A stretch of 52,776 nt of DNA from a virus. The stretch lies in the IMG/VR virus record IMGVR_UViG_3300042731_003369, positions 1-52,776 of that record; one strand, written 5' to 3'. The notes beneath the pieces are model-generated. The model ran no database searches and was not told the DNA's origin. It saw only the letters and a program-made list of their open reading frames with translations. The position numbers were made by a program, and so were the translations under genes. Shown one piece after another: positions 13,835 through 52,776 of this stretch (positions within the stretch are counted from its first letter, which is position 1; the number at the start of each line of letters is the position of its first letter).

Positions 13835-14644
13835 ATGGAACCAGTATATATTCTTATAAGAACATCGGGCAGGCCGAAATTTTTTTCCTGCCTGATGGAA
13901 TCTATAAAACAGCAAACCTATGATAATATAGTCACAATAGTTCATAGCGATGATCCCAGAGATGAATATGTTACTGGCGATATAATCGTATGCGGGCAGG
14001 CTTACGGCCCGGAATACGGAGACGGTACTTACAATCTTTATAACAACAGGCTTTTAAAAGCTATTCCCGATGAACCCGGCTGGTTCCATTTTATCGATGA
14101 TGATGACAGATATGTCGCGCCGGATGTCATAGAAAAATTAGTCAGGAAATCAAAAAAAGATCATATTAATATCGCAAGGGTGAAACGCTGGAATAATGTT
14201 ATTTTTCCGCGTCACTGGGGCAGTCAGAAATCTTATCAAACCGAATGTTTTTTTATTCATACAAATTACCGTTTTAAAGCCAAATGGTGGGGGAATAAAG
14301 GCGGAGATCATAACTACTCAAAACAATTAACAAAAATACTTCCAATAAACTGGATTGATAAACTTTTGATCTGCGAGGCACAGGAAGGGAAAGGACACGG
14401 TCTAAAACTGGATAAAGGCGCAAAAAGGGTTCAGAAACCCGATCTTCCGCCTGATACAAAAGTGGCTGTACTAGGATTAAGAAAACACATGACTGGGAAA
14501 AGAAGCGAATGGATCAAGCCGGGACAAATGAAATACTTACCTTACCGGGTAGCGTCAAAACTTGAAAAGTTAGAAAAAGTTAAAATTACATTTTACATGA
14601 ATCAAACGGAGAAACCTCCGGCAAGAAATATATTAGAAATTTAA
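13835..14644 (+). CDS. GT-A-type glycosyltransferase embedded in tail genes
   Basis: This 269-aa protein starts PVYILIRTSGRPKFFSCL and has the donor/metal-binding acidic run IDDDD at 87-91 expected of a GT-A fold, plus LLICEAQEGKGHG. About 60% of its first 200 residues match the glycosyltransferase at 50473-51066. It has an extra C-terminal 70 residues with PDLPPDTKVAVLGLRKHMTG. It would transfer a sugar from a nucleotide donor. Placed between tube and chaperone genes and co-directional with them, it is probably expressed late, perhaps to glycosylate virion proteins. Confidence 0.8.
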   Translation: MEPVYILIRTSGRPKFFSCLMESIKQQTYDNIVTIVHSDDPRDEYVTGDIIVCGQAYGPEYGDGTYNLYNNRLLKAIPDEPGWFHFIDDDDRYVAPDVIEKLVRKSKKDHINIARVKRWNNVIFPRHWGSQKSYQTECFFIHTNYRFKAKWWGNKGGDHNYSKQLTKILPINWIDKLLICEAQEGKGHGLKLDKGAKRVQKPDLPPDTKVAVLGLRKHMTGKRSEWIKPGQMKYLPYRVASKLEKLEKVKITFYMNQTEKPPARNILEI

Positions 14645-26738: not shown

Positions 26739-26945
26739 ATGAAAAAAAGAAAATATTTAGTTAAAGAAAAAAAAGAAATTTATAATAAAAAATGGGATCA
26801 ATGTTTAAATCATAATCCAATTATAAACCATAGGAAAGAATTGAAATCATATCATGTTTTTGCTTATTGCCAAGAAGATGCTTGTTTTATTGTTGCAGAA
26901 AGATTAAAAAAAAGTATTCTTGATTATAATGCCGAATTAATATGA
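26739..26945 (+). CDS. hypothetical protein before IbrA
   Basis: A 68-aa Lys-rich protein (KKRKYLVKEKKEIYNKKWDQ) with a short AYCQEDACF cysteine pair. It follows the first leader element and overlaps the IbrA start by four bases, so it may be co-translated. Similar short genes next to ibrA are not known to me. Confidence 0.6.
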   Translation: MKKRKYLVKEKKEIYNKKWDQCLNHNPIINHRKELKSYHVFAYCQEDACFIVAERLKKSILDYNAELI

Positions 26946-28192
26946 AAAATTATTTAAAAATAAATGTTTTGCAAGCTACTCAAGAAAGAATTAAATATAT
27001 ATTTGATAATTTTAATAAAATATATGTATCTTTTTCAGGTGGAAAAGATTCAACTGTAATGCTTCATCTTATAATGGATGAAGCAATTAAACGCAATCAA
27101 AAAATCGGTTTATTATTTATAGATTTAGAAGGGCAATATAAATATACTATTGATCATATTAATGAAATGATCAAATTATATAATAATCATATTGAATTAT
27201 ATTGGATATGTTTACCTTTAATTTTACGAAATGCTGTTTCAGTATTCGAACCACGATGGATATGCTGGGATAATGATAAAAGAGATATTTGGATTCGTTC
27301 ATTGCCTGATAATGTTATTCATGATATTACTTATTTTTCATTTTTTAGAAAAGGAATGGAATTTGAAGATTTCGTAATTGAATTTGGAAAATGGTATTCT
27401 CAAGGAAAAAAAACTGCATGTTTTGTTGGTATACGATCAGATGAATCTTTAAATAGATTTAGAACAATTAAAAATGATAAAAAACAAACATATAATAATA
27501 AAATGTGGACTACAAAAATATATGATACAAATATATATAATATATATCCGATATATGATTGGAAAACATCTGATATATGGAAATATAATGGGAAATATAA
27601 AAAATGTTATAATAAACTTTATGATATTATGTATAAAGCTGGATTGTCTATTCATCAACAAAGAATATGTCAACCTTATGGAGATGATCAACGAAAAGGA
27701 TTGTGGTTATTTCATATAATAGAACCGGAAACTTGGTCAAAAATAATTGCTCGTGTTAATGGTGCAAATAGTGGGGCAGAATTTGTTCAATATTCAGGAA
27801 ATATTTCTGGACAAATTAAAATAACAAAACCTGAAAATCACACATGGCAAAGTTTTAGTTTATTACTTTTGGAAACAATGCCTGAACAATTAAAAGAACA
27901 TTATAAAAATAAAATCCATATTTTTTTAAGATGGTATGAAGAACGAGGATATAGAAATGGAATTCCAGATGAAGTTGATTTAAAAGAAGAATCAACAAGA
28001 AAAAGACCATCATGGCGCAGAATAGCAAAAATGTTATTGCGTAATGATTATTGGGCAAAAGGATTATCGTTTAATCAAACAAAAGATGGATATTTTTATA
28101 AACGATATTTAACAAGAATAAAATTGGATAGAGATAAACGAGAATTTGAAAATAAAATAAAATGTAGAAACGGAGGTAAATTTTTAATATGA
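26942..28192 (+). CDS. ibrA: IbrA-like PAPS reductase-family protein
   Basis: This 416-aa protein has the N-type ATP pyrophosphatase loop SGGKDST at 32-38 and the family body with YPIYDWKTSDIW, FVGIRSDESLNR, HQQRICQPYGDDQRKGLW. The length and C-terminal WRRIAKMLLRNDYWAK part match IbrA-type proteins (PAPS reductase plus DUF3440). IbrA/IbrB were described as activators of immunoglobulin-binding eib genes in E. coli; the chemistry is not settled. Very AT-rich codons suggest transfer. It overlaps the ibrB-like gene by four bases (ATGA). Confidence 0.88.
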   Translation: MKNYLKINVLQATQERIKYIFDNFNKIYVSFSGGKDSTVMLHLIMDEAIKRNQKIGLLFIDLEGQYKYTIDHINEMIKLYNNHIELYWICLPLILRNAVSVFEPRWICWDNDKRDIWIRSLPDNVIHDITYFSFFRKGMEFEDFVIEFGKWYSQGKKTACFVGIRSDESLNRFRTIKNDKKQTYNNKMWTTKIYDTNIYNIYPIYDWKTSDIWKYNGKYKKCYNKLYDIMYKAGLSIHQQRICQPYGDDQRKGLWLFHIIEPETWSKIIARVNGANSGAEFVQYSGNISGQIKITKPENHTWQSFSLLLLETMPEQLKEHYKNKIHIFLRWYEERGYRNGIPDEVDLKEESTRKRPSWRRIAKMLLRNDYWAKGLSFNQTKDGYFYKRYLTRIKLDRDKREFENKIKCRNGGKFLI

Positions 28193-28692
28193 ACCAAGAA
28201 TGGATAAAAGATCATCCTATAAATAATGTAATATGGTTGCCCATAGAACAAATATTTGGTAATGATTATAATCCAAATAAAGTTGCTCCTCCGGAAATGG
28301 AATTATTGAAATTATCCATTCAAACAAATGGATATACTCAACCAATTGTTGTATGGAAAACTGAATATGGTTATGAAATAGTGGATGGTTTTCATAGACA
28401 TTTAATTGGAATTGAATTAAAATTATCTCATCTTCCTTGTGTTATAATTAACAATAAAGATACCGGTAGAAGTGATCGTATAGCAGCAACAATCCGACAT
28501 AATAGAGCAAGAGGAAAACATCAAATTCAATCAATGAGTGATATAGTATTGGAACTTTCCCGTAGAAATTGGAATGATAAAAAAATAGCGAAAGAATTAG
28601 GTATGGATGCAGATGAAGTATTGCGTTTAAAACAAATAACTGGTCTTGCGGAATTATTTGCAGATGAAGAATTTTCAAAAGCATGGGAATAA
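28189..28692 (+). CDS. ibrB: IbrB-like ParB/Srx-domain protein
   Basis: A 167-aa protein with the ParB-fold motif YEIVDGFHRHLIG, then IAATIRHNRARGKHQIQ and a helix-turn-helix-like KKIAKELGMDADEVLRLK, ending ADEEFSKAWE as IbrB proteins do. ParB-fold proteins bind DNA or hydrolyse nucleotides. The pair with IbrA is well known in prophages. It is co-translated with the PAPS-reductase-like gene and followed by the second leader element. Confidence 0.88.
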   Translation: MNQEWIKDHPINNVIWLPIEQIFGNDYNPNKVAPPEMELLKLSIQTNGYTQPIVVWKTEYGYEIVDGFHRHLIGIELKLSHLPCVIINNKDTGRSDRIAATIRHNRARGKHQIQSMSDIVLELSRRNWNDKKIAKELGMDADEVLRLKQITGLAELFADEEFSKAWE

Positions 28693-42849: not shown

Positions 42850-42999
42850 ATGAATGATTACAATTGCTGTGAACCGGACACAAAAATCATGACAAAAGAA
42901 GAAAGGGAAAAATTTGTCCGGGAATGGCTCAAGAAAAATAAGGAAGGGATAAAAGAAACGCTAGATGAATATCGGATTGATAGATGTAGACAGCCATAA
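42850..42999 (+). CDS. small charged protein overlapping the radical SAM gene
   Basis: A 49-aa protein (MNDYNCCEPDTKIMTKEERE) that overlaps the next gene by 35 bases in another frame. AAGGAA is upstream. It is probably translated, and may regulate the next start. Confidence 0.45.
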   Translation: MNDYNCCEPDTKIMTKEEREKFVREWLKKNKEGIKETLDEYRIDRCRQP

Positions 43000-43828
43000 T
43001 TTTCCCAATCTTGCATTGATGAAAATATCGGCATACTATAAAGCGATGGGAGATCAGGTTGAATTTGCTGATATGTTTGGACATTACGATATTATATATA
43101 AAAGCAAAGTATTTTCATGGACGGCGGATAATATTACAGCTTATGATTGCGATGAATACATAGAAGGTGGTACTGGATATAATTTTAATAATTTACCTGA
43201 AATGATGAATGATATGTGTCCTGATTATTCTCTTTATAATTGTAAACATGCGTATGGGTTTTTAACGAGAGGGTGTATCCGAAATTGTGAATGGTGTATT
43301 GTTCCTGAAAAAGAAGGCAAAATACGAGCAGAAAATGATATTCAAGATTTTATTGCGGATAAAAAATCTGCTATCCTTATAGATAATAATGTATTAGCAT
43401 CAGAACACGGAATAAAACAAATTAAAAAGATTATTGATTTAGGAATTAGCATAGATTTTAATCAAGGATTAGATGCAAGACTTATCGATGATTATACCGC
43501 TTACTTATTATCAAAAGTGAAATGGTTAAGTCCTTTACGGATGGCTTGCGATAGTCAGGCAATGAAAAAACCAGTAAGAAGGGCGATTAACTTATTGATT
43601 AAACATAATTGTAAACCTAAGAATTATTTCATTTATACGTTAGTGAAAGACATTGATGAATCATTAGATAGAATTGAATTTTTAAAAGCATTACATGTTG
43701 ATCCCTTTGCTCAGGCTTATAGAAATTTTAAAAACACAGAGCCTACATGGGAACAAAAAAGATTGTGCAGATGGGTTAACCATAAGGCTATATTTAAGAG
43801 TATAGAATGGGAAAATTATAAAAAATAA
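42965..43828 (+). CDS. radical SAM enzyme
   Basis: The 287-aa protein has an N-terminal alpha/beta part (NIGLIDVDSHNFPNLALMKI) like a reduced cobalamin-binding domain and a radical SAM cluster motif C104-x3-C108-x2-C111 (GCIRNCEWCIVP). The C-terminal half includes IDFNQGLDARLIDDYTAYLL and LRMACDSQAMKKPVRRA. It uses a 4Fe-4S cluster and SAM to make a radical. Its substrate is unknown. Genes of this type occur in other phages. Confidence 0.82.
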   Translation: MNIGLIDVDSHNFPNLALMKISAYYKAMGDQVEFADMFGHYDIIYKSKVFSWTADNITAYDCDEYIEGGTGYNFNNLPEMMNDMCPDYSLYNCKHAYGFLTRGCIRNCEWCIVPEKEGKIRAENDIQDFIADKKSAILIDNNVLASEHGIKQIKKIIDLGISIDFNQGLDARLIDDYTAYLLSKVKWLSPLRMACDSQAMKKPVRRAINLLIKHNCKPKNYFIYTLVKDIDESLDRIEFLKALHVDPFAQAYRNFKNTEPTWEQKRLCRWVNHKAIFKSIEWENYKK

Positions 43829-43840
43829 AGGAAACATTAG

Positions 43841-44209
43841 ATGCCCATAAGACCGGAAAACAAAGAGGAAGTATATAATAAATATAAAGGTCATTGTGCC
43901 TATTGTGGGAAAATTATTGATTATAGGAGTATGCAAATTGATCATATCAAACCACAGGCATTTGGCGGATTAGATAATATTGAAAATTTAAATCCTTCTT
44001 GTAGACAATGCAATCATTATAAAAGAGGGATGCCTTTAGAGGATTTTCGTAATATTTGGCTTGGTAAACTGCATGAGAGATTATTAAAACAATATACAAT
44101 AAAAGTAGCAATAAGCTATGGTATAGTAAAAATAAAGCCATTTAATTTAAAATTTTATTTTGAAAAAAGGATAAAGGAAACGCTGAATGCTATCAAAGAC
44201 AAAAATTGA
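43841..44209 (+). CDS. HNH endonuclease
   Basis: A 122-aa protein with CAYCGKIIDYRSMQIDHIKP and NPSCRQCNHYKRGM, a full HNH/zinc domain with DH and N residues. The C-terminal 50 residues are basic. It overlaps the following DUF5131-type gene. Between the two radical-SAM-type genes, it may be a homing insertion or a partner of the modification enzymes. Confidence 0.8.
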   Translation: MPIRPENKEEVYNKYKGHCAYCGKIIDYRSMQIDHIKPQAFGGLDNIENLNPSCRQCNHYKRGMPLEDFRNIWLGKLHERLLKQYTIKVAISYGIVKIKPFNLKFYFEKRIKETLNAIKDKN

Positions 44210-44846
44210 ATGGTGCGATTATGTATGGAATCCGGTTATTGGCTGTAAAACCGGGTGTAAATTCTGTTATGCTAAAAAAATAAACGACAGATTTCATTTT
44301 ATTAAAAATTGGGATGAGCCGGAATGGAGGGAGAATTCTTTTAATAAATCTTTTCCGAAAAAATCGGCAAGAATTTTTATCAATTCAATGTCTGATATTT
44401 GTTATTGGGAAGATATATGGATGAGACGAGTATTGGATAAAATTAAGAAATATCCGCAGCATACTTTTTTATTTTTGACGAAAGATTTTGATATATATGC
44501 TGATTATGAATTTCTGAAAAATTGCTGGTTAGGATATACGATTATTAATCAAAAACAAATGGATATTTTAGCCTATGATGACGCTTTTTATCCGCCGGAA
44601 AAAAAGAATAAGTTTTTCATATCCATTGAACCGATGCAAGAAGACATTATTTTGCGGATAACTTGTGATTTGTTGATTATAGGTGCTGAAACCGGAAATC
44701 GTAAAAATAAAATAATACCTAAACAAGAATGGATAGCAAATTTATTGCTGCAGGCAGATAAAGATAATATTCCTGTTTTTATGAAAGACAATCTCAAACC
44801 TATTTATGGGGATAATTTAATACAGGAATTTCCAAAGGATAAGTAA
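44187..44846 (+). CDS. DUF5131/Gp37Gp68-type radical SAM-like protein
   Basis: This 219-aa protein begins TKIEWCDYVWNPVIGCKTGC, with Cys at 20, 24 and 27 (C-x3-C-x2-C) like a radical SAM site. NSMSDICYWEDIWMRRVLDK, FLTKDFDIYA and LIIGAETGNRKNKIIPKQEW match the phage Gp37/Gp68 family. Members are widespread in phages; their substrates are unknown. It overlaps the HNH gene by 23 bases. Confidence 0.85.
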   Translation: MLSKTKIEWCDYVWNPVIGCKTGCKFCYAKKINDRFHFIKNWDEPEWRENSFNKSFPKKSARIFINSMSDICYWEDIWMRRVLDKIKKYPQHTFLFLTKDFDIYADYEFLKNCWLGYTIINQKQMDILAYDDAFYPPEKKNKFFISIEPMQEDIILRITCDLLIIGAETGNRKNKIIPKQEWIANLLLQADKDNIPVFMKDNLKPIYGDNLIQEFPKDK

Positions 44847-45820: not shown

Positions 45821-46528
45821 ATGGAAATCATTATTCGATGTTGTGGTGAAAGAACAGAAAAAAAATGCATTGAATTAGCAAAACAACAGGGCAATGTTCA
45901 TATTATTCGGGCATATCCGTTCGGCGAATCTTTGCGAAAATCTTATGAATTAGCGATGACTTTTAGGCAAAAATGGATTCCAATGGTTGACGCAGACGTT
46001 CTTCTTTTAGATGGTTCTTTGAAAAAAGGAATTAAATTTTTAAATGATAATGATAAAAAAAATAATATTTTCTGCCTTGATGGGAAAACAAAAGATAAAA
46101 TATTTTTAAATACCCGCCGGGCAGGAATACATATATATAAACGAAATCTTTTAAAACAAGCCTATCCTCATATTAAAAATACGAAATTAAAACCAGAAAG
46201 TTATGTAAGGCGTACAATGGCGAGTTTAGGTTATCCTACAGTAACAGGAAAATTGGTTTTTGGATATCATGATTATGAACAATATTATTGTGATCTATGG
46301 CGGAAAGCATTTGCGCAATCTCAGAAACTTGCAAGAAAAATAAGACGAACAAGTATAAGAAATAAATGGAAAAAACGTGCTGTACATGATGAGGATTTCA
46401 AAGTGATTCTTGCGGCGCACGATCAAGGCAGATTATATCAAAAAAAAATAATAATAGATAGACGCATAGATTACGGGGCGGAAAAAGGATTAAAAGAGTT
46501 AGGAATAAAAGAGAAAAAAGAATTATGA
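45821..46528 (+). CDS. GT-A-type glycosyltransferase-like protein
   Basis: This 235-aa protein opens with a Rossmann-like strand (EIIIRCCGERTEKKCIELAK) and has the metal-binding D-A-D at 57-59 (KWIPMVDADVLLLDG). A basic helical region (residues 155-185) follows. It is the first of nine overlapping glycan genes. The sugar donor and acceptor cannot be read from the sequence. There is no clear Shine-Dalgarno before the ATG. Confidence 0.7.
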   Translation: MEIIIRCCGERTEKKCIELAKQQGNVHIIRAYPFGESLRKSYELAMTFRQKWIPMVDADVLLLDGSLKKGIKFLNDNDKKNNIFCLDGKTKDKIFLNTRRAGIHIYKRNLLKQAYPHIKNTKLKPESYVRRTMASLGYPTVTGKLVFGYHDYEQYYCDLWRKAFAQSQKLARKIRRTSIRNKWKKRAVHDEDFKVILAAHDQGRLYQKKIIIDRRIDYGAEKGLKELGIKEKKEL

Positions 46529-47052
46529 AACGTTGGGATGCGATAGCGAAAAGATGTCCTGGAGGTAAAATAATGGGGGTTGAAGTTGGTGTTTATAAAG
46601 GCAAAAATGCTAGAAATCTTTTGAATTTGTTACCGGGGTTAACATTATTTTTGGTTGATAGATGGGCAGAATATAATTCAAAAGAAATTAAAAACGATGA
46701 AGCTTCTACAATGGGATTTATTAACCAAGATACATGGAATAAAATTTATAATAAAGTACTGAAATTACAGAGAAGGCAAGGATTAAAGCGGGTCAAAATC
46801 ATAAGAAAAAATAGTATCCAGGCATCGAAGAAGTTTAAAGATAGATCATTGGATTTTGTTTTCATCGATGCTGGACATAGTTTTGAATCGGTCAAGAATG
46901 ATATTATGGCATGGCTGCCAAAAATTAAATCTAGTGGTTTTATTGGCGGTCATGATTATAATCGATCAGGAGTTAAACAAGCAATTGAATTTATGTTTCA
47001 GCATTCAGTTATCGAATATGATATAAATAAAACTTGGTTTGTAAAATTATGA
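46525..47052 (+). CDS. class I SAM methyltransferase (Methyltransf_24-like)
   Basis: A 175-aa protein with the SAM motif IMGVEVGVYKGKNARNLL at about 16-33, an acidic LFLVDRW strand end, and LDFVFIDAGHSFESVKNDI, GFIGGHDYNRSGVKQA. This FIDAGH-GGHDY pattern is typical of methyltransferases in polysaccharide gene clusters. It probably methylates a sugar hydroxyl. ATGA links it to the gene before. Confidence 0.82.
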   Translation: MKRWDAIAKRCPGGKIMGVEVGVYKGKNARNLLNLLPGLTLFLVDRWAEYNSKEIKNDEASTMGFINQDTWNKIYNKVLKLQRRQGLKRVKIIRKNSIQASKKFKDRSLDFVFIDAGHSFESVKNDIMAWLPKIKSSGFIGGHDYNRSGVKQAIEFMFQHSVIEYDINKTWFVKL

Positions 47053-47642
47053 AAATATATAAATATAAAAATTATGCTGAATACAGGAAATATCAAATTG
47101 AAGCAAACAAAAGAAAATCAAAAAATGTTTGGGCGAAAGAAGAAAACATAAAAGCCATTGCAGAATTTATCAAACAGCGAAATCCAGAATATGGAATGTG
47201 TCACGGTGTACGGCAGGGGCATGAAGTAATCTGGTTTAAGAAATATCTTAATTGTACAATAATTGGAACTGAGATCGGAGACATAAAATATAGAAATATA
47301 ATTCAATGGGATTTCAATAAAGAAAGTCAATTATGGATTGGCAAATTTGATTTTATATATAGCAATAGTTTCGATCATGCTTATAATCCACAGGAAACCA
47401 TTAATATTTGGAAGAATCAATTGAAACCAAATGGATTGTTGATATTAGAATATGACCGGCGTCAAGAACATACCGGAGAGATCAGCAAAGGAATAAATAA
47501 AACCGATCCTGTGAGTATAAAATTTAAAGAATTACAGAAATTAATTCCTGAATGGACAGGAATGAAATTAATTAAAATACTTGATATGCCTGTTATTACT
47601 CAGGAATGGCGAAAGGCTATAGTCTATGAGAAAATTACTTAA
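47049..47642 (+). CDS. class I SAM methyltransferase-like protein
   Basis: From the ATG at 47049 (which overlaps the stop before) it has 197 aa. KFDFIYSNSFDHAYNPQETI and LKPNGLLILEYDR fit the later motifs of Methyltransf_11 enzymes. The SAM-binding glycine motif is weaker (CHGVRQGHEVIWF). It may act on another position of the glycan. An upstream TTG at 47034 is rejected. Confidence 0.7.
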   Translation: MKIYKYKNYAEYRKYQIEANKRKSKNVWAKEENIKAIAEFIKQRNPEYGMCHGVRQGHEVIWFKKYLNCTIIGTEIGDIKYRNIIQWDFNKESQLWIGKFDFIYSNSFDHAYNPQETINIWKNQLKPNGLLILEYDRRQEHTGEISKGINKTDPVSIKFKELQKLIPEWTGMKLIKILDMPVITQEWRKAIVYEKIT

Positions 47643-48159
47643 TGAGAAACAACGGCAGCAGAAAATAAAAGCAATCGAAAAGACAGTTGCAATTTTAAAT
47701 AAATTAAATATTGAATATTTTGTCGGAGGTAATCTTCTACTTGATATTTATAGAGAAAAAAAAGTATCAAATTGGCCTTATGGAATAGCGCTAAATGTTA
47801 AATATGAAATATTGGAAAGTAAAATATCAATATTAAGGCAGGAGCTAGAAAAAGAAGGATTTAGGACGACAAAATTAATAAGTCCGTTACGATGTAAGAT
47901 AAATGCATATTATAAAAATAGACTTTGTGAAATAGTCGCTTGGTATGATAGAGGGAAATACAGGATTCGGAAAAAATATAAACTTCCAGCTAAATTTTTT
48001 AAACCTGGGAGATATAAAAAATTGCATGGTAAGAAATACCAAGTGTTAAATCCGCCGATAGAATATCTAGAATATCGATTTGGAAAAAATTGGCAAATAC
48101 CAATTAGAGTTAATGGCGGTCATCGGGGTAAATATGAAGAAGCAAGGTATCGAAGATGA
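47626..48159 (+). CDS. LicD-like nucleotidyltransferase-fold protein
   Basis: The 177-aa protein has NIEYFVGGNLLLDIYREKKV, close in pattern to the GG-x-LL region of LicD/fukutin proteins, and a C-terminal PIEYLEYRFGKNWQIPIRVN that fits their end. The catalytic D-x-D stretch expected after the first motif reads NWPYGIALNV here. LicD adds phosphocholine to glycans. Because the acidic residues are missing it may be inactive or altered. Confidence 0.6.
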   Translation: MRKLLNEKQRQQKIKAIEKTVAILNKLNIEYFVGGNLLLDIYREKKVSNWPYGIALNVKYEILESKISILRQELEKEGFRTTKLISPLRCKINAYYKNRLCEIVAWYDRGKYRIRKKYKLPAKFFKPGRYKKLHGKKYQVLNPPIEYLEYRFGKNWQIPIRVNGGHRGKYEEARYRR

Positions 48160-48689
48160 AGATAGCAGGTATAATCGCAGCAAAAGAAAATAGTAACCGT
48201 TTTCCGGGCAAGAATTATTACTCTTATAAAAACAAACCTATATATCGGCATAATTTTGATTTGTTGAATGAAAATCCGTTGGTTAATATGACTTATATAG
48301 TTACTAATTCATTTGAGATTAAAAGTTATTTTAAAAATATACCTTTGGCTGTAATAGAAAGAAATATAAATATATGTGAAGATGATCAGCCTATTTTTGA
48401 CGTTATTAAATATGCTTATCATTGTTTACCGGAAAGATATCATATTATAATTTCCATTTTGGCAAATTCTATAAATCATACTCAGGAATCCATCACAGAA
48501 GCATTAACCAAAATGATTAATAATCCTGAATTATTAGAAATCAGAAGCTATGGTGAAAATGGAATTGAAAATGGTATTCTAGTATTAAGGGATAAGGCGT
48601 TTAAGAAACATGAATTATCATGGTATATAGGAATGGTGAAATCGCCGGGAAAAGAGATACATTACAAGAAAGATTTGGATTATGTCTAA
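48156..48689 (+). CDS. CMP-nonulosonate cytidylyltransferase-like protein
   Basis: A 177-aa protein starting KIAGIIAAKENSNRFPGKNY, the CTP-binding motif of NeuA-like enzymes with Lys in place of the usual Arg. VTNSFEIK and a helix with TQESITEAL follow in family order. Normal NeuA is about 220-230 aa, so parts are reduced. It would activate a nonulosonic acid as CMP-sugar. It lies directly before the NeuB-like gene, a common pairing. Confidence 0.75.
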   Translation: MKIAGIIAAKENSNRFPGKNYYSYKNKPIYRHNFDLLNENPLVNMTYIVTNSFEIKSYFKNIPLAVIERNINICEDDQPIFDVIKYAYHCLPERYHIIISILANSINHTQESITEALTKMINNPELLEIRSYGENGIENGILVLRDKAFKKHELSWYIGMVKSPGKEIHYKKDLDYV

Positions 48690-49524
48690 ATTATATTTCA
48701 TAGCCGAACTTGGACAGAATCATCAGGGTGATATAAAAATCGCGAAACAGATGATTGATCAACTTATGGGATCAGGCGTAAAAGCAATAAAAACGGCAAA
48801 ACGCAATATAGATTTAATGCCCGAAGATCAAAAAAATATGCTTTATGATAATAAACATAGTTTCGGAAAAACATATTACGAACATCGAAAAGCTCTTGAA
48901 TTATCAGAGACAAATTTTGAAGAATTGAAAGGATATGCAGAAAAAAAAGGATTTGATTTTGTTTCTTCTTTTACAGATATTCCAAGTTTTTTATTTTTGG
49001 GGCTCATAGGAATAAAACAATTTAAAATAGCATCACAGCGAATCGCAGATGAAGAATTATTAAGGTATGTTGCTGAACACTGGAAAGGAACTGTTTATAT
49101 GTCTTCTGGGATGTCAAAATTACCAGATATTGAAAATATGATAAATATATTCAGAAACAATAAAAAATATTTAATGCAGTGTACAAGTGTTTACCCTGCG
49201 GATGCTAAAATACAGCATTTACGGATATTAAAGACATATCGCAGAAAGTTTAAAAATAAAGTAGACGGTTTTGGATATAGCAGTCATTACAAAGGGATTG
49301 CGCCGGACATTGCTGCTTATGCGCTTGGGGCAACGATAATCGAAAGACATTTTACATTAAATCGAAAATGGAAAGGAACTGACCATGCGTTAAGTTTGGA
49401 AATACATCAAGTAAGGAAATTAATTAAATATTTAAATGAAGTTGCAAAAAGTCTGGGTGATTCTGAAAAAAAAATATTGAATGAGGAAGTACCGGCAATT
49501 AAGAAATTAAGGGCAGATTTATGA
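48682..49524 (+). CDS. NeuB-like nonulosonic acid synthase
   Basis: The 280-aa protein has LYFIAELGQNHQGDIKIAKQ, KIASQRIADEELLR, YMSSGMSK, LMQCTSVYP, GYSSHYKG and IIERHFTLNRKWKGTDHALS, all in NeuB order. The two metal-binding His are kept at 202 and 223. Normal NeuB has about 340 aa; the C-terminal SAF (antifreeze-like) domain is absent. The enzyme condenses PEP with an N-acetyl-hexosamine to give a sialic-type acid. The usual D in YSDHT is S. Confidence 0.9.
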   Translation: MSKLYFIAELGQNHQGDIKIAKQMIDQLMGSGVKAIKTAKRNIDLMPEDQKNMLYDNKHSFGKTYYEHRKALELSETNFEELKGYAEKKGFDFVSSFTDIPSFLFLGLIGIKQFKIASQRIADEELLRYVAEHWKGTVYMSSGMSKLPDIENMINIFRNNKKYLMQCTSVYPADAKIQHLRILKTYRRKFKNKVDGFGYSSHYKGIAPDIAAYALGATIIERHFTLNRKWKGTDHALSLEIHQVRKLIKYLNEVAKSLGDSEKKILNEEVPAIKKLRADL

Positions 49525-49823
49525 GATTTAAATTTGACATAGATAATACGATAATATTTTCAAAAGTCAATGAAAAGGGATTATATGAATTTGTCGGATT
49601 TGATAGAATAATTCGGGATAAAATTAATAGGCTTTATGAGGAAGGACATATAATCATAATAGAAACCGGAAGACATTGGAATCAATTAGAAATTACAATA
49701 AAACAATTACAGATGATTGATTTAAAATATCATACATTAATAATGGGGAAACCGCCGGTTGATCATTATGTCGAAGATAAAGCATTAAAACCGAGTGAAT
49801 TTAAAAATATGGAATTAAAATGA
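49521..49823 (+). CDS. HAD-type phosphatase-like protein
   Basis: A 100-aa protein with KFDIDNTIIF at 4-13 (the D-x-D-x-T of HAD enzymes), TGRHWNQLE as motif II, and MGKPPVDHYVEDKAL with the lysine and acidic motifs III/IV. Small HADs of this type occur in capsule and phage sugar clusters. It could dephosphorylate a sugar intermediate, as in the 9-phosphate route of sialic acid. It is linked by ATGA at both ends. Confidence 0.78.
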   Translation: MRFKFDIDNTIIFSKVNEKGLYEFVGFDRIIRDKINRLYEEGHIIIIETGRHWNQLEITIKQLQMIDLKYHTLIMGKPPVDHYVEDKALKPSEFKNMELK

Positions 49824-50476
49824 AAATTTTACACGTTCCCAGAACAGGCGGTACCGCAATAAAAGCAAGTCTTGTTAAGGGATATAGAAAGCATCCAAAA
49901 GATATAAAATATCTTTCAACAAGAATACCTAAATTATATATTTGTAATCATAAACAAGTACTAGATAGTAGAGATCAGTATATAATATTTGTCCGTGATC
50001 CCATAGAAAGATTTATTTCTCATTTTGTTTTTTTGAAGAAACATGCCGCAGGATATGATACCGAAAAATATATGAATCCTTCGACAGATAAAGTCATAGG
50101 GAAATATGATAATATTAATGATTTTGCTAAAGATATTTTTAAATTTAAACTAAGAAAATTTATCCGGTTTTCGGATATACTAATAAGTCCGGAATATGTA
50201 AAAAGACATGAAAAAAATATTAAATTTGTCGGTAGAACGGAATATTTAAATCAGGATTTTTTACAGATGCAAAAAGTTTTGAAAACATTTACAAAAATAG
50301 AAATAAGTAAAAAATATACAAATAAACGTCCGGATAGGTACGACGAATTAACAAAACTTGATAAAATTTCATTTAAAAATTTAAGAAAATATTTGAGCAA
50401 AGATTATATGATAATTAAGACATTATCTGAGCTTGGATTTTTGGATCGACAATATTTGAAGGAAATACATTTATGA
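49820..50476 (+). CDS. PAPS-dependent sulfotransferase-like protein
   Basis: The 218-aa protein has the 5'-phosphosulfate loop LHVPRTGGTAIKASLV at 4-19 and the 3'-phosphate motif YIIFVRDPIERFISHFVF at 54-71, the two diagnostic motifs of the sulfotransferase family. Lys-rich helices make up the rest. It would move sulfate from PAPS to a sugar. It is joined to both neighbours by ATGA. Confidence 0.85.
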   Translation: MKILHVPRTGGTAIKASLVKGYRKHPKDIKYLSTRIPKLYICNHKQVLDSRDQYIIFVRDPIERFISHFVFLKKHAAGYDTEKYMNPSTDKVIGKYDNINDFAKDIFKFKLRKFIRFSDILISPEYVKRHEKNIKFVGRTEYLNQDFLQMQKVLKTFTKIEISKKYTNKRPDRYDELTKLDKISFKNLRKYLSKDYMIIKTLSELGFLDRQYLKEIHL

Positions 50477-51066
50477 TCCCGGTATATATATTAATTAGAA
50501 CTAGCGGTAGGCCGAAGTTTTTTAAATGTCTTTGGAAGTCTATCCAGCAACAGACATATTCGAATATTATAACAATTACACATAGTGATAATACTAGAGA
50601 CAAATATGTAAAAGGCGATATTATCATTAGAAGCAGACCAGAGCCGCACAAAGGCCGGGGATTTTACAATCTTTATAATAATGTTTTACTGGCGAATATC
50701 CCGAAAGGCCAGGGATGGTATGTATTTGTTGATGATGATGATATGTACGCCGCGCCAAATGTTATCGAGAGATTTGTAAAAGCTGCGAAAACTGATTATA
50801 TTAATGTTGCGAGGGCAGACCGGGGCAGAGGCAAGGTTTGGCCGAAAACATGGAGAGGGCAGAAAGTTTTCCAGACAGAATGTTTTATGCTGCATACAAA
50901 ATATAAAAAAATGGCTAAATGGTGGGCTAAGCAGGGAGGTGATCATTATTATACGAAACAGATTACAAAAAAATTACCAATAAACTGGATTGATAATTTG
51001 ATAGTATGTAAAGCACAAGCCGGCAAAGGCCGGGGATTAAGACTTGATAAAGGTCAAAAAAAATAA
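50473..51066 (+). CDS. GT-A-type glycosyltransferase, paralogue of the tail-module copy
   Basis: This 197-aa protein starts PVYILIRTSGRPKFFKCLWK and has the acidic VDDDD at 86-90. The sequence is about 60% identical to the glycosyltransferase at 13835-14644, including TECFMLHTKY, GGDHYYTKQ and LPINWIDNLIVC. It lacks that protein's last 70 residues. Even the bases after its stop (AAGGAGATTTTATG) repeat those after the other copy. It ends the glycan operon. Confidence 0.82.
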   Translation: MIPVYILIRTSGRPKFFKCLWKSIQQQTYSNIITITHSDNTRDKYVKGDIIIRSRPEPHKGRGFYNLYNNVLLANIPKGQGWYVFVDDDDMYAAPNVIERFVKAAKTDYINVARADRGRGKVWPKTWRGQKVFQTECFMLHTKYKKMAKWWAKQGGDHYYTKQITKKLPINWIDNLIVCKAQAGKGRGLRLDKGQKK

Positions 51067-52758: not shown

Positions 52759-52776
52759 TTGCGCAAAATTACGCAA
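52759..52776. promoter_or_regulatory. paired TTRCGCAA octamers at the right end
   Basis: TTGCGCAA at 52759-52766 and TTACGCAA at 52769-52776 lie ten bases apart, one helix turn. The first is a perfect palindrome. They cover the right copy of the 12-bp repeat and could be a terminase cutting or binding site. Confidence 0.45.
52765..52776. repeat. right copy of 12-bp terminal direct repeat
   Basis: AAAATTACGCAA ends the window and is identical to positions 1-12. Together the two copies suggest that the window is one full genome with cohesive or redundant ends. Confidence 0.6.

Follow-up and report, generated by a model that had tools for sequence, protein, structure and literature searches.

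Why would a virus genome hold, in a single run of overlapping genes, what look like enzymes for making, activating, methylating, sulfating, and transferring a sialic-acid-like sugar, and on what would such a sugar be placed? The question is raised by a cassette at positions 45821 to 51066 of IMG/VR record IMGVR_UViG_3300042731_003369, the whole of which (52,776 nucleotides) is the window analyzed here. Large terminase, portal, protease, capsid, sheath, tape measure, and baseplate genes were found on the contig, which by this structural gene set is a contractile-tailed phage. The cassette is read here as a putative two-layer glycan-decoration operon that is virion directed and adds a nonulosonic acid, a reading to which we assign a probability of about 0.6. 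Its nine open reading frames (ORFs; GT, glycosyltransferase; MT, methyltransferase; ST, sulfotransferase) are as follows.

45821 to 46528, + strand: GTa, probable GT-A glycosyltransferase, backbone gene 1 (Glycos_transf_2 match; homologues in contigs L106 and G020)
46525 to 47052, + strand: MTa, class I S-adenosylmethionine (SAM) methyltransferase (Methyltransf_24, E = 4.6e-17)
47049 to 47642, + strand: MTb, probable SAM methyltransferase (Methyltransf_31, E = 1.7e-4, a weak match; L106 and G020 homologues)
47626 to 48159, + strand: LicD-like nucleotidyltransferase-fold protein, a weak assignment (LicD and partial NF045866 matches)
48156 to 48689, + strand: NeuA, predicted short cytidine monophosphate (CMP)-nonulosonate synthetase, first gene of the added block (CTP_transf_3 match and fold)
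48682 to 49524, + strand: NeuB, short nonulosonate synthase without the C-terminal SAF/antifreeze domain (PF03102)
49521 to 49823, + strand: HAD, small phosphatase (phrog_1238, EcbF-BcbF, and motif residues)
49820 to 50476, + strand: ST, sulfotransferase dependent on 3'-phosphoadenosine 5'-phosphosulfate (PAPS), last gene of the added block (Sulfotransfer_2 and PAPS motifs)
50473 to 51066, + strand: GTb, GT-A-like glycosyltransferase, last backbone gene (paralogue of 13835 to 14644)

All nine ORFs listed in an earlier note on this DNA were recovered on the + strand at the same positions. That note counted overlaps at seven of the eight junctions; overlap was confirmed, and it extends to all eight (4, 4, 17, 4, 8, 4, 4, and 4 bp). 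Genes in the structural half of the genome also overlap at 12 of 24 junctions, so tight packing alone is unremarkable here. The ATG at 47049 is a better start for MTb than the listed TTG at 47034, as homologues begin there. Promoter- and terminator-like sites in the cassette region showed no excess over shuffled sequence.

The family labels proposed earlier held for NeuB, the NeuA-type protein, HAD, ST, and MTa, and were weaker by profile score for MTb, GTa, GTb, and the LicD-like protein. NeuB matched the full-length catalytic domain of PF03102 (E = 1.5e-56, model positions 1 to 241 of 241), and by sequence its membership in the NeuB family is certain; against the N-acetylneuraminate synthase equivalog TIGR03569 it scored 203.7 bits, below the cutoff of 399.65. 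Its residues E9, K37, K115, Y171, H202, H223, and D234 align to E25, K53, K129, Y186, H215, H236, and D247 of meningococcal SiaC, which we take to be the Mn- and phosphoenolpyruvate-site positions, H202 and H223 being the presumed metal histidines and K37 and K115 the presumed phosphoenolpyruvate-site lysines. NeuA (177 amino acids) matched CTP_transf_3 (PF02348) above its cutoff (E = 2.4e-8), and its AlphaFold2 model (mean predicted local distance difference test score [pLDDT], 85) had as its top Foldseek match the CMP-N-acetylneuraminate (CMP-Neu5Ac) synthetase 6ifd (E = 6.7e-11; template modeling score by query, 0.87). HAD (100 amino acids) matched phrog_1238 (E = 9.6e-20) and EcbF-BcbF (E = 2.2e-5) and retains the DxDxT, T/S, K, and D motif residues. 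ST matched Sulfotransfer_2 (PF03567; E = 1.7e-8; 35.3 bits versus a gathering cutoff of 22) and contains both PAPS motifs (VPRTGGTAI and FVRDPIERFIS). The LicD-like protein matched LicD (PF04991) at 0.071 (13.6 bits, under the cutoff of 22.6), with a partial match to NF045866 (E = 5.4e-7). Sequence searches of the PDB with NeuA, ST, and the GT family gave no useful match.

By gene family and gene order, the synthesis and activation of a nonulosonate-type sugar, a probable dephosphorylation step, and functions for methylation, sulfation, and transfer are brought together in one phage operon, as had been proposed. The description of the pathway as self-contained was overstated: the cassette has no precursor-sugar enzymes, no recognized sialyltransferase, and no adenosine 5'-phosphosulfate (APS) kinase. 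Because no APS kinase was found, PAPS must be host supplied. A PAPS-reductase-like gene (26942 to 28192) was considered as a sulfate-donor supply and rejected, as a reductase would use up PAPS and an APS kinase is missing. At 26942 to 28692, this gene (phrog_2302) overlaps a ParB-like gene in an IbrA/IbrB-like pair.

The two layers became apparent in comparison with related phages. The cassette of relative G020 has the order GTa-MTa-(two small ORFs)-MTb-GTb, and in L106, a more distant phage, GTa-MT-MTb-(140 amino acids)-LicD-GTb stands directly before the portal gene; NeuA, NeuB, HAD, and ST were not found at either cassette. GTa homologues (53 to 58% identity) head both of these NeuB-less cassettes. 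A 39% MTa homologue directly follows GTa in G020, MTb homologues are present in L106 (62%) and G020 (54%), and a 53% LicD homologue lies immediately upstream of GTb in L106. Since L106 and G020 have the outer genes without NeuA-NeuB-HAD-ST, the simplest reading is that a module of four genes, 48156 to 50476, entered an older sugar-transfer and methylation backbone between LicD and GTb; loss of the block in the other phages is possible and would need more events. Homology searches found none of GTa, MTb, LicD, GTb, and NeuB in relative G002, and the whole cassette is therefore accessory.

The acceptor is suggested by GTb, which is 60% identical to the product of a gene in the tail operon.

13835 to 14644, + strand: GT-tail, GTb paralogue in the tail operon, between the tail tube and tape measure genes

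This gene adjoins the tail tube gene (phrog_4699), and its syntenic place between that gene and the tape measure region is kept in about 18 related contigs. Genes of this type are fixed at that position in the whole phage group (L087 to L103 and L109), and they have a C-terminal domain that is absent from GTb. The cassette contains no flippase, polymerase, membrane glycosyltransferase, lipid-linked enzyme, or export gene and no clear membrane protein (19-residue hydropathy peaks at 1.65, within the NeuB barrel). The paralogue in the tail operon, together with the absence of membrane and export genes, favors an acceptor in the cytoplasm, most probably a protein of the virion and not a surface polysaccharide, and narrows the earlier suggestion of a virion or host surface target toward the virion. 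That the cassette instead alters the surface polysaccharide of the infected host, for superinfection exclusion or receptor masking, seems improbable: bacterial surface-polysaccharide loci do carry such NeuA/NeuB/GT sets (for example, L006 from Moritella), and a flippase and polymerase could be borrowed from the host, but the cassette carries none of the membrane or lipid-linked components, the GTb paralogue is fixed in the tail operon, and related cassettes in other phages adjoin portal or terminase genes. Glycosylation of DNA bases was rejected as a function, as no modified-base gene was recognized among the proteins scanned.

Gene families and order, the insertion pattern, the NeuB clade (phage-only in the collections searched), the recurring module, and the tail-operon paralogue are observed; the reaction order, sugar identity, acceptor, and purpose given next for a virion-directed operon are inferred. 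The backbone proteins (GTa, MTa, MTb, the LicD-like protein, and GTb) would place sugars on an acceptor in the cytoplasm, for which a tail protein or another protein of the virion is the most likely candidate, and would methylate them. The added block would join a host sugar to phosphoenolpyruvate to form a nonulosonic acid; HAD would remove phosphate if the sugar is phosphorylated, as in the ketodeoxynononic acid (Kdn) route from mannose-6-phosphate (Man-6-P), and NeuA would couple the acid to CMP. Transfer of the CMP-sugar could be carried out by one of the two cassette glycosyltransferases or by a host enzyme, and ST would sulfate the product with host PAPS. Such a pathway would give the virion a methylated and sulfated glycan of strongly acidic character, with possible bearing on adsorption, host defense, and recognition of phage particles.

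Several observations weigh against this pathway. Both glycosyltransferase assignments are weak, with Glycos_transf_2 matched at 0.034 by GTa and at 0.002 by GTb (PF00535; 18.5 bits versus a gathering cutoff of 23.3), and the predicted structure of the tail-operon glycosyltransferase, built from a three-sequence alignment, is of low confidence (pLDDT, 43). No GT29 sialyltransferase was found in the window. In NeuA, EIHYKKDL (E-I-H-Y) replaces the canonical C-terminal D-x-D metal motif clade-wide, and catalytic activity is, on this sequence, not assured. In NeuB, A39 and R120 occur clade-wide in place of SiaC Q55 and E134 (L014 partly deviates at the first site), which we take to be sugar-side positions, and the chain stops before the SAF domain, presumably the source of SiaC R314. 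On the other side, 20 of 23 GTb family members matched Glycos_transf_2 at E values up to 0.01 (best, 4.5e-7), and the DDDD motif of GTb was invariant across 23 homologues.

The altered NeuA motif, the short NeuA chain (177 amino acids versus about 217 to 245 in solved synthetase chains), the missing SAF domain, and the several weak assignments would also fit degenerate or repurposed proteins with no complete pathway running. This is very unlikely: the ORFs are intact and overlapping, catalytic motifs are kept across a phage clade at 51 to 57% identity, and a short NeuB without the SAF domain was the usual form among phage and cellular samples alike.

The same NeuB substitutions, together with the missing SAF domain, mean that the sugar could be unusual. 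Candidate products are Kdn and other nonulosonates, with 3-deoxy-D-manno-octulosonic acid (Kdo) less likely. Synthesis of a different ulosonic acid (an eight-carbon acid like Kdo, or a nonulosonate built on an unusual sugar), which is compatible with either target, is a tentative possibility. CMP-Kdo synthetases were among the sequence matches of NeuA, its model fits CMP-Kdo and CMP-Neu5Ac synthetases alike (CMP-Kdn and CMP-pseudaminic acid synthetases were also matched), and Kdo synthesis likewise proceeds by synthase, phosphatase, and CMP transferase. The synthase, however, belongs to the NeuB family and not to KdsA, and several viral relatives lie near GT29 sialyltransferases.

The window's NeuB fell in a nine-member, all-phage clade (99% support by Shimodaira-Hasegawa-like approximate likelihood ratio test in a quick tree), within which the motif YFIAE[IL]GQNHQG is found and most members have IKTAKRD where other NeuBs have KFQ. 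Cellular matches did not exceed 43% identity among the best 80 listed. No bacterial member of the clade was found in a clade-specific genome scan with narrow patterns or among the best 80 matches of a broad scan, which is not proof of its absence from cellular genomes. That this NeuA/NeuB/HAD lineage evolved in phages and, with its altered sugar site, makes a new ulosonic acid for sulfation and attachment to the tail is a speculative and rather unlikely proposal; if true, such tails would carry an acidic coat of a kind not yet described for bacterial viruses.

Relatives of NeuB were encoded on 354 IMG/VR contigs in an alignment-based scan, which offer many systems for testing; single-sequence scans of viral contigs with NeuB and with ST gave no match. 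Among uncultured viruses NeuB is not uncommon, although in the phage collection matches occurred in only 3 of 50,697 records (one of them bacterial). The NeuA-NeuB-HAD set recurs across viruses in different gene orders: L014 has NeuA-NeuB-HAD, overlapping by 4 bp; L012 has HAD-NeuA-NeuB; and L007 and L008 have NeuB-HAD. A small HAD gene lay within 8 kb of NeuB at 50 of 80 viral loci versus none of 76 cellular loci (P = 4e-20, ignoring relatedness).

The neighborhood search suggested in the earlier note, for NeuB beside a sulfotransferase in other phages, found ST genes adjoining NeuA/NeuB in L011, L012, and L014 and nearby in L007 and L008. Several members of the NeuB clade show such adjoining sulfotransferase genes. 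Four sulfotransferase-like genes occupy about 4 kb of L011 (1099 to 5360), one of them between NeuA and NeuB. PF03567 was matched in 14 of 50 NeuB-bearing records versus 0 of 22 relatives without NeuB, although the weight of this comparison is reduced, as the latter were mostly partial contigs and control genomes of the search gave no match either. GT29 sialyltransferase genes were present in 8 of the 50 NeuB-bearing records, which supports a CMP-nonulosonate product in those records. Genes of this family, of eukaryotic type, were seen in phages L005, L007, and L010; a single region of one 484-kb phage holds several of them.

Compared by gene content, the added block resembles in outline the Kdn pathway of Bacteroides thetaiotaomicron, in which Kdn-9-phosphate synthase BT1714, a sialic-acid synthase type enzyme, acts on Man-6-P and phosphoenolpyruvate with a HAD phosphatase and a CMP-Kdn synthetase (PMC6200933). 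The phage set differs from the bacterial and algal Kdn pathway in the small size of its HAD, in a NeuA about 40 to 70 amino acids shorter than solved synthetases, and in the inclusion of a sulfotransferase. Adjacent, overlapping NeuA and NeuB genes recall the bacterial NeuB/NeuA and PseI/PseF surface-polysaccharide loci, but the phage cassette lacks precursor enzymes (such as NeuC) and export genes, and the small HAD homologue is a point of difference from the cellular loci sampled. To our knowledge, virion glycosylation in actinobacteriophages involves neither nonulosonate synthesis nor sulfation. That system (Freeman et al. 2023, as cited in PMC13313380) is described there as having virion proteins as its target, and it shares with this cassette a phage-encoded glycosyltransferase and methyltransferase, seen here as gene content.

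NeuB in viral DNA is already known: neuB sequences were recorded in viromes (PMC3877843), and phage DLP4 has a NeuB-domain ORF in its lysis module (PMC6469090). The passages on NeuB in these two accounts describe no cassette, NeuA-NeuB-HAD module, or sulfotransferase link. Searches of open-access papers yielded no account of a phage nonulosonate module, of a sulfotransferase linked to one, or of such a module inserted into a cassette with a tail connection. If the reading as a virion-directed operon is true, tailed phages own an exchangeable sialic-acid-like pathway module and may wear sulfated acidic sugars, and the module would provide a compact set of short enzymes for acidic-sugar synthesis and activation.

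The ends of the contig bear on its completeness.

1 to 12, no strand: 12-bp terminal repeat, left copy, probable cohesive end
52765 to 52776, no strand: 12-bp terminal repeat, right copy

The identical 12 bases at the two ends adjoin the small terminase gene. The ends of relative G002 are also identical over 12 bp, but with a different 12-mer, and the start/end boundary of contig L003 coincides with the end site of the window. The contig is therefore very probably a complete 52.8-kb genome with cohesive ends of 12-nucleotide overhang. A chimeric assembly, in which a phage was joined to a bacterial capsule locus, could be suspected from the position of the cassette close to one contig end, but its probability is close to negligible given these ends, the phage genes on both sides of the cassette, the same backbone in other phage contigs, and the failure of any cellular home for the NeuB clade to turn up in the genome scans; the cassette is not confined to host genomes. 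Matching 12-bp contig ends also suggest that the IMG/VR class "linear, no end repeats" may conceal complete genomes. A pair of radical-SAM-type phage genes lies upstream of the cassette at 42965 to 44846, together with an HNH gene.

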